Assembly: GCA_900079685.1 (NCBI GenBank)
Contig: LT599018.1
Coordinates: 489,012-553,011 of the forward strand
Reading direction: 5' to 3'
DNA: 64,000 bases
Source of the DNA: an uncultured delta proteobacterium
GTDB lineage: Bacteria; Desulfobacterota; Desulfovibrionia; Desulfovibrionales; Desulfovibrionaceae
A model generated the notes under the pieces. The model searched no databases. It saw only the letters and a program-made list of their open reading frames with translations, and was not told where the DNA came from. Within the stretch, counting starts at the first letter, position 1; every line of letters begins with the position of its first letter. This document shows positions 7,780 to 11,891 of the stretch, one piece after another. Position numbers and translations under genes: made by a program.

Positions 7780-7902
7780 TCATGCCCCGTGCTTCGCCAA
7801 CCCGTGGCAAAGGCGGGCAAGAGAGAAGAAAAAGGCCGCGCAGAGGGAACAGATGCCCAGCAGGGTTATCCCGCCGCATTGGGAAAGTGTTTGTACCAGC
7901 AT
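7780..7902 (-). CDS. Small symporter-associated membrane protein (40 aa)
   Basis: A 40-residue frame begins at the ATG at 7902 with AAGGAG seven bases upstream, and ends one base before the symporter start. It reads MLVQTLSQCGGITLL at the N terminus, followed by one hydrophobic segment (GICSLCAAFFFSLARL) and a short basic tail. Short one-helix proteins encoded just before SSS symporters are known as symporter small accessory proteins. Assignment to that group rests on size, helix and position, not on alignment. Confidence 0.7.
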   Translation of the reverse strand: MLVQTLSQCGGITLLGICSLCAAFFFSLARLCHGLAKHGA

Positions 7903-7923
7903 GAGAACTCCTTGTTTTCGCGC

Positions 7924-7957
7924 AAAAAAAGACCGCCGGCCCTTGGGGCGGCGGTCT
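7924..7957 (-). terminator. Attenuator-type terminator in symporter leader
   Basis: On the minus strand GACCGCC...GGCGGTC pair around a GC-rich loop and are followed by seven T. The hairpin lies after the leader peptide and before the 40-aa gene, so it would stop the transcript before the symporter unless it is disrupted. Confidence 0.75.
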
Positions 7958-7986
7958 GATATGCAACGGGGTGCAGTGGTTTCAGA

Positions 7987-8061
7987 TCAGGCGCAACGCG
8001 TAAGGCCCGGGGTCGCTATGCTGTCCGGGTAATAATACGTGTATGTGAAAGCCTGAAGCAT
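7987..8061 (-). CDS. Tyr/Phe-rich leader peptide (24 aa)
   Basis: An ATG at 8061 with AAGGA upstream opens a 24-codon frame that reads MLQAFTYTYYYPDS and ends in TGA at 7987. Four Tyr and one Phe lie within seven codons, with no other obvious role. A short aromatic-rich peptide followed by a GC-rich hairpin plus T7 is the layout of ribosome-mediated attenuation, as in phe or trp leaders. Low charged tRNA-Tyr would stall the ribosome on the Tyr run and could favour read-through into the symporter. I could not settle the alternative antiterminator fold by eye. Confidence 0.65.
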   Translation of the reverse strand: MLQAFTYTYYYPDSIATPGLTRCA

Positions 8062-8087
8062 GGTAAATCCTTATAGGTTTCTTTTTT

Positions 8088-8114
8088 TCTATAGAGCATC
8101 GCGCGAGTTGTCAA
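8088..8114 (-). promoter_or_regulatory. Sigma70-like promoter for leader-symporter transcript
   Basis: A perfect TTGACA (8114-8109) and TATAGA (8093-8088) are separated by 15 bases on the minus strand, upstream of the leader peptide. The spacing is short; TAGAAA at 17 bases is an alternative -10. Confidence 0.6.
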
Positions 8115-8253: not shown

Positions 8254-10683
<2,430 letters not shown>

Positions 10684-10739: not shown

Positions 10740-11891
10740 ATGCAGTACCGGCAGATCGGCGCCACGGGCATGACGGCCAGCATCATCGGCCTGGGCCTTG
10801 AGCACCTTGACCGCAAACCTTACGCGGTTGTGGAAAATACCATCCACGCGGCTCTGGACCACGGCATCACCATCATGGACGCGTTCATGCCGGGGGAGGA
10901 GGTCCGCCGCAACATCGGCAGGGCGCTGCAAGGCCGGCGGGACAAAGTGCTGCTCCAGGGGCACGTCTGCTCGGTGGACATCAACGAGCAGTATGACATC
11001 AGCCGCGATCTGCCCACCTGCAAGCGGTATTTTGAAGACCTGCTGCGGTTCCTGGGAACCGATTACATTGATTTCGGCATGCTGTTTTTCCTGGATAACG
11101 AGGAGGCATTCACGCAGGTTTGGGAGAACGGCATTCTTGAATACGTCCAGGATCTGAAACAAAAAGGCGTCGTCCGGGCCATCGGGGCCAGTTCCCATAA
11201 CCCGGCGATCGCCCGCAAGGTCGTGGAGACCGGCGTCGTCGACCTGCTCATGTTCAGCATCAACGCGGCGTTCGATATGACGAGCGCCGGCACCGATGTC
11301 CTGGATACGCTGCAGGACGGTTTTGCCGGGCAACAGTACGAGGAGGGCATAGACCCGGCGCGGATGGCCCTGTACCGCCTTTGCGAGCGCAACGGCGTGA
11401 GCATTACCGCCATGAAGCCCCTTGGGGCCGGAAAGCTGCTGTCCGCCGAGCACACGCCGTTCGTCCGGCCCATGAGTGTCGGGCAGTGCCTGCACTATGC
11501 CCTGACCCGCCCGGGCGTGGTCAGCGCGCTTGCCGGGTGCCAGTCCCCCGAGCAGGTCGCGACGGCAGTCGCGTATCTGGATATGCCCGACGAAGACAGG
11601 GATTATACCCATATCCTGCGTGAAAGCCGGGGAAACATGCGGGGGAGCTGCGTCTATTGCAGCCATTGCCAGCCCTGTCCCGCGAACATTGATATCGCCG
11701 CCGTGAACCGGTACCTGGATATTGCCCTGCTGGACACGGAAAACATCCCGCCCAGCGTGCGGCAACACTACGGTGCGCTCGCGCAGCGCGGCGCGGACTG
11801 CATCGCCTGCGGCAACTGCGAGGAGCGCTGCCCCTTCGCCGTGCCCATCATCGAAAACATGGAGCAAGCGGCCGCAATCTTCGGATCATAA
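10740..11891 (+). CDS. Aldo/keto reductase with C-terminal 4Fe-4S cysteines
   Basis: 383 residues: an AKR-type TIM barrel (MQYRQIGATGMTASIIGLG, VRAIGASSHNP, ITAMKPLGAGKLL) followed by a Cys-rich tail. The tail has CVYCSHCQPCP at about 304-314 and CIACGNCEERCP at about 354-365; the second fits a 4Fe-4S site. Such fused reductases are common in anaerobes and presumably move electrons between a nicotinamide or carbonyl substrate and an iron-sulfur cluster; the substrate is unknown. AGGAGAGG stands directly upstream of the ATG. It follows the kinase by 56 nt on the same strand. Confidence 0.87.
   Translation: MQYRQIGATGMTASIIGLGLEHLDRKPYAVVENTIHAALDHGITIMDAFMPGEEVRRNIGRALQGRRDKVLLQGHVCSVDINEQYDISRDLPTCKRYFEDLLRFLGTDYIDFGMLFFLDNEEAFTQVWENGILEYVQDLKQKGVVRAIGASSHNPAIARKVVETGVVDLLMFSINAAFDMTSAGTDVLDTLQDGFAGQQYEEGIDPARMALYRLCERNGVSITAMKPLGAGKLLSAEHTPFVRPMSVGQCLHYALTRPGVVSALAGCQSPEQVATAVAYLDMPDEDRDYTHILRESRGNMRGSCVYCSHCQPCPANIDIAAVNRYLDIALLDTENIPPSVRQHYGALAQRGADCIACGNCEERCPFAVPIIENMEQAAAIFGS

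Follow-up and report, generated by a model that had tools for sequence, protein, structure and literature searches.

A sodium:solute symporter gene in the 64,000-nucleotide stretch of DNA analysed here (the window) appears to be governed by a short leader peptide rich in tyrosine codons. The mechanism is well supported by comparison among related loci, and the element is very probably a ribosome-mediated attenuator. The whole explanation, in which an attenuator responsive to tyrosine and phenylalanine would control a Na+-coupled importer of these two amino acids, we hold to be quite likely.

Organization of the symporter locus

The elements lie on the minus strand in the order promoter, leader, terminator, 40-aa ORF and SSS symporter. 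The first-pass annotation had described a promoter, a 24-codon peptide with FTYTYYY, a hairpin with seven T residues, a 40-aa gene and an SSS symporter in a row, and all of these were present. The predicted promoter (8114-8088) has a -35 element TTGACA (8114-8109) and a -10 element TATAGA (8093-8088) separated by a 15-nt spacer; a generic promoter scan overlooked it because the scan permits spacers of 16-18 nt only. Downstream of it are a Shine-Dalgarno sequence, AAGGA (8072-8068), and the leader ORF (8061-7987; ATG at 8061, stop codon at 7989-7987) for a 24-aa peptide, MLQAFTYTYYYPDSIATPGLTRCA, in which the control codons F-T-Y-T-Y-Y-Y occupy 8049-8029, as assigned from the sequence and from the composition of homologues. 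The leader is followed by an intrinsic terminator, the attenuator (7957-7924; dG -21.8), which consists of the hairpin AGACCGCCGCCCCAAGGGCCGGCGGTCT (7957-7930) and a T7 tract (7930-7924), then by the 40-aa hydrophobic ORF (7902-7780) with its own AAGGAG, and finally by the SSS-family symporter gene (7778-6303; PF00474, E 1.9e-26). The symporter is the last gene of the operon, with an oppositely oriented cheA-like gene 3' of it, and the upstream neighbour, a GAF-PAS hybrid histidine kinase (8254-10680), is divergent from the leader-symporter unit. Downstream of the kinase lies an aldo/keto reductase (10740-11888) with weak C-terminal 4Fe-4S matches.

The symporter scored 93.4 bits against PF00474 (gathering score 22.8), which places it in the SSS family, and fell below the NCBIfam equivalog cut-offs for PanF and PutP (81.9 vs 328 and 70.1 vs 515.5, respectively). 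The product of the 40-aa ORF is probably a single-helix membrane protein and perhaps serves as an accessory subunit of the symporter. Searches of Pfam and NCBIfam gave no family match for this small ORF; a similar small hydrophobic ORF (31-48 aa) is found immediately 5' of the symporter in most orthologous loci, with the attenuator present or not.

Distribution and conservation of the leader peptide

The window lies at G000:C1:489012-553011, and its relatives put it in Desulfovibrionaceae. Three sources supplied the orthologues: these relatives, a scan of 84,980 species and 288 Desulfovibrionaceae genomes. The species scan gave 52 symporter loci, in Desulfovibrionaceae and Synergistaceae, and one further record, labelled Deltaproteobacteria only, that is the sister genome; the symporter is carried by 54 of the 288 Desulfovibrionaceae genomes. 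An F/Y-rich leader with the same type of terminator was present in 26 of 57 distinct assessable orthologues, from both deep clades, Desulfovibrionaceae and Synergistaceae. Homologous leaders include MYQAFAYTYYYYPDHIAHPGLLRRA, MNKAFFFSFTYYYYPDALPRLGVMPCA, MTFSFMHFYYYYSGHRLWAPDRMCCA and MKLLSAIRDFRYYFTGVIH, and those of Synergistaceae include MMGKALFNNNYYYYYYAYPRTYDASGFLVFSSE and MKKHNATVHSYYYAYAYSRCIASGQMVFSAKSGQA. When the leaders of related genomes were aligned, the F/Y run was kept and the rest of the peptide varied; across clades the peptides share little besides this aromatic run, in which F and Y interchange. On a symporter tree of 60 rows, built by a quick method, all six Synergistaceae that could be assessed have the leader, as do most of the Desulfovibrionaceae that branch early, and a large clade around D. 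piger and the Desulfovibrio of the rumen is without it; five changes suffice to account for leader presence on this tree, as against about 19 in shuffles. Terminators found 5' of some leaderless orthologues (D. piger and a group behind a TetR-like gene) were considered as attenuators and rejected, since they lie a long way upstream or come immediately after the preceding gene, to which they were taken to belong.

In 19 non-redundant leaders, F, Y and W together made up 24% of residues in the reading frame and 9% when the two remaining frames were translated, the in-frame shares being 14% for Y, 9% for F and 0.4% for W, and the last control codon stood 58-95 nt from the terminator. The first-pass annotation had proposed Tyr control codons: the aromatic run proved to be conserved, but the signal is Tyr plus Phe rather than Tyr alone, one paralogue being Phe-dominated. 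It had also taken a lack of conserved Tyr codons in homologous loci as evidence against attenuation, and here the F/Y runs proved to be kept wherever a leader was recognized; 31 of the 57 distinct orthologues have no leader. A queuosine-based sensor, which would respond to the Tyr-Asn-Asp-His codon set, was ruled out, as in some leaders Phe runs replace Tyr. The rate of chance occurrence was gauged in 1.52 Mb (strand-summed) of fetched sequence, in which terminators with T>=5 were searched for a preceding Shine-Dalgarno-bearing short ORF that has three or more F/Y/W within six codons. The results showed such an ORF before 20 of 92 distinct terminators; 17 of these matches lay before the symporter, two before an aro operon, and one was a chance match. 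The same scan found no other pair of aromatic ORF and terminator in the window than the symporter leader.

Among the predicted promoters, 23 of 24 loci had a perfect TTGACA within 90 nt 5' of the leader start, as against 2% among shuffles, which counts against the possibility, raised at the outset, that transcription starts downstream of the peptide. The promoter comparison also bears on a reading that makes the short ORF a small gene in its own right, or an sRNA, ending at the terminator, and that gives the symporter a different promoter further downstream. The ORF, the terminator and the next gene could indeed be separate units, and many orthologues have no leader; however, the generic scan (16-18 nt spacers) gave no sigma-70-like minus-strand site between the terminator and the small ORF, and such an arrangement gives no role to the F/Y codons, to their spacing or to an antiterminator that covaries with the terminator (see below), so that we regard it as very unlikely. 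In a Desulfovibrio subgroup (L093, L094, L097, L103, L111, L113, L131, L132, L071 and L079), TTGACA stands 35-36 nt 5' of the leader AUG and there is no clear Shine-Dalgarno sequence, a spacing which suggests that the leader-peptide mRNAs of this subgroup are leaderless.

Terminator and antiterminator of the proposed RNA switch

The structure was both derived and counted on an alignment of eight window-type leaders (A3), on which the terminator was 98.8% paired, three of its pairs being changed on both sides, and had a covariation score reached by 0 of 500 shuffles. Its 5' arm is arm 3 (AGACCGCCGCCC, 7957-7946), and its 3' arm is arm 4. When the stretch under the stalled ribosome was masked and arm 4 left out as not yet transcribed, RNAalifold on A3 paired arm 2 (8009-7995) with arm 3 (7956-7949); on this same alignment the 2:3 antiterminator was 98.4% paired, three of its pairs being changed on both sides, and had a score reached by 1 of 500 shuffles, and the pairing fell to 19-72% when the arms were slid. 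The identical three columns of arm 3 change in both helices and thus covary with arm 2 and arm 4 together, a pattern that, as far as the alignment can be read, is the signature of classical ribosome-mediated attenuation. An antiterminator, which folding had been expected to reveal if the first proposal was right, was therefore found, and it covaries with the conserved terminator in the eight window-type leaders. According to RNAalifold and pair counts on A3, arm 1 (CCCGG, 8029-8025) pairs with the CCGGG at 8010-8006; the first base of this 1:2 helix is also the last one of the final Tyr codon, and the helix takes up part of arm 2 (CCGGG...CGcGUU, 8010-7995), whose partner by the pair counts is either arm 1 or arm 3. 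It was 90% paired on A3, and its covariation was not significant.

In Synergistaceae, the antiterminator comprises 17 pairs, 96% paired, one of them compensatory. RNAalifold gave no consensus antiterminator on the alignment of the Desulfovibrio 19-aa leaders; one is visible in single sequences of this group, e.g., L079. Generic duplex energies of arm 2 with arm 3 showed no significant excess over shuffled or swapped arms across all leaders. For the window alone, the conserved 2:3 register has an energy of -4.6 kcal/mol, and the free-RNA optimum after the stall (-14.5) is a neighbouring register that pairs GGG, GCG, GCG and CUGAU with AUCAG, CGC, CGC and CCC and likewise occludes arm 3. A covariance-model search against Rfam gave no T-box or other family, only chance-level matches to unrelated sRNAs.

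These features also allow a comparison with nascent-peptide arrest. In tnaCAB, the TnaC leader peptide precedes the Trp permease TnaB, and the operon is induced by Trp via peptide arrest and Rho. A similar reading of the window, in which the leader peptide itself detects a small molecule from within the ribosome and the terminator is exposed or hidden once the stall is released, would fit a short aromatic leader before an amino acid transporter, as in tnaC-tnaA-tnaB, and the symporter as we read it would likewise be an aromatic amino acid permease behind a leader peptide. Arrest, however, needs fixed residues at fixed positions, whereas these leaders vary outside the F/Y run and exchange F for Y within it, and the downstream element is an intrinsic terminator with a competing antiterminator and no Rho region; arrest of the TnaC type is thus most improbable here.

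Proposed mechanism

The conserved F/Y leaders, the terminator, the covarying antiterminator and the upstream TTGACA support the layout of ribosome-mediated attenuation that had been proposed from the window. In such an attenuator, RNA polymerase would start about 20 nt 5' of the leader AUG and a ribosome would translate the leader. If charged tRNA-Tyr/Phe is plentiful, the ribosome would reach the stop codon and cover arm 2, so that arms 3 and 4 would make the terminator and transcription would end near 7924. In a shortage of Tyr (or Phe), the ribosome would presumably stall at FTYTYYY and mask arm 1, upon which arm 2 would pair with arm 3, the terminator would be blocked and polymerase would be expected to read through into the 40-aa ORF and the SSS symporter. 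The operon would thereby be induced by a shortage of aromatic amino acids, and such induction is most simply explained, we infer, if tyrosine and/or phenylalanine enter the cell together with Na+ through the symporter.

The aro-pheA-tyrA operon as an internal control

In the window's genome, an aldolase-pheA-aroA-tyrA operon (L085, G000:C1:2578000-2596500) is also preceded by an F/Y leader, MHHITAARYSYPSESVFFYGFYFFGFSTACGRGCAA, and a T7 terminator, which together occupy positions 2077-2240 of the reverse complement of that locus. The sister genome shows the same arrangement at its aro-pheA-tyrA operon, and a comparable leader was found before the aro operon in 12 of 16 further genomes, one of the 16 loci being bounded by a contig end. 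In the seven genomes with trpE no more than 8 kb from pheA, the aro leader has 1-3 Trp codons, and in the six without trpE at that distance it has 0-1; over the 13 genomes the association gave a Fisher p of 0.02 (for at least two Trp codons) and a Mann-Whitney p of 0.004, with small numbers and kinship uncorrected. Given that Trp codons in aro leaders rise with trpE in the operon, leader composition tracks the pathway. Within Desulfovibrionaceae it thus appears to indicate the amino acids with which the genes behind the leader have to do; the symporter leaders, by analogy, appear to indicate Tyr and Phe rather than Trp.

Substrate of the symporter

Judged from its leader codons, the symporter is likely to import tyrosine/phenylalanine. 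The two symporter paralogues of Desulfovibrio cuneatus (L069 and L051) have leaders of different composition, one Phe-dominated (MHTIFFFMSFFFTPSYRKTLGSAAL) and the other mixed Phe/Tyr (MNTSFVFANSNYYRSFNERGQAVECAVF), which is consistent with different substrate preferences of the two copies. The gene neighbours are suggestive of amino acids and not decisive: a VorB-like 2-oxoacid:ferredoxin oxidoreductase lies 5' of one D. cuneatus paralogue, PRK07324 aminotransferases lie near Synergistaceae symporter loci, a branched-chain amino acid carrier lies 3' of the symporter in L064, and L081 has an Lrp-like regulator as neighbour. The window's genome has pheA and tyrA, and synthesis of Phe and Tyr is predicted. 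Auxotrophy as the reason for the transporter was ruled out, since the window's genome has both PF02153 and PF00800 and, of 59 genomes searched, 54 have the one and 54 the other; with pheA and tyrA in the host, an importer would spare synthesis rather than fill an absolute need. As a separate observation, no chorismate-binding protein (TrpE/PabB-type, PF00425) was found in the window's genome (95% completeness) despite pheA and tyrA, and Trp auxotrophy is possible.

The attenuator might respond to Tyr/Phe as a general signal of aromatic starvation while the symporter carries another cargo, such as an aromatic keto acid, a shikimate-pathway intermediate or a vitamin. The nearest named NCBIfam models (SSS superfamily, PanF and PutP) all remain below cut-off, the host makes Phe and Tyr itself, and the symporter's neighbours do not indicate aromatic metabolism, all of which leaves room for such a cargo. 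Set against it are the conservation of F/Y-specific, Trp-poor leaders in two phyla, the differently composed leaders of the two D. cuneatus paralogues and the way in which aro-operon leader composition follows the pathway, and we consider another cargo unlikely. The import of tyrosine and phenylalanine extends to a broader picture that we find fairly likely, namely that an SSS Na+-coupled Tyr/Phe importer with a small membrane subunit would stand under a tyrosine-codon attenuator in two phyla, and that Desulfovibrionaceae would have a leader-peptide aromatic regulon that includes an attenuated aro-pheA-tyrA(-trp) operon.

Discussion

The mechanism described here is a textbook one, which cannot be said of the gene under its control or of the control amino acid. 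Leader-peptide attenuation would now take in tyrosine codons and a sodium symporter, and an orphan branch of a large transporter family would gain a specific, testable cargo. The correlation of Trp codons with trpE in aro leaders suggests, moreover, that leader composition may help predict the substrates of unassigned transporters. A search of the open-access literature, with subscription literature outside its scope, found no report of the symporter attenuator, and a review from 2021 on the SSS proteins of prokaryotes uses none of the words tyrosine, phenylalanine, tryptophan and aromatic (PMC7918813).

PanF and PutP share with the symporter the Na+ symporter fold family PF00474, and the symporter differs from them in scoring far under both equivalog cut-offs. 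One comparative study notes attenuators of phenylalanine genes and mentions pheST, describes complementary triples that antiterminator and terminator have in common, as they do in the window-type leaders, and lists the RNA regulation of tyrosine under T-boxes (PMC1262725). The Tyr T-box riboswitches of Gram-positive bacteria are likewise Tyr-responsive transcription attenuators, sometimes of tyrosine-related genes; there, however, the RNA reads the tRNA directly without a leader peptide, and the symporter leader has no T-box match. The trp operon attenuator (trpL) has arms 1-4 with mutually exclusive 1:2, 2:3 and 3:4 helices, a scheme that the symporter leader matches with a putative 1:2 helix, but it combines Trp codons with biosynthetic genes, whereas the symporter leaders have almost no Trp. 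The pheA and pheST leaders of gamma-proteobacteria have a Phe-rich peptide, a terminator, a competing antiterminator and codon-stall logic, and resemble the symporter leader in its aromatic peptide, terminator and antiterminator and in the codon-stall logic proposed for it. They differ in that their codons are those of Phe and their genes serve biosynthesis or tRNA charging, whereas the control codons of the symporter leader are mainly Tyr and the gene behind it encodes a sodium symporter.
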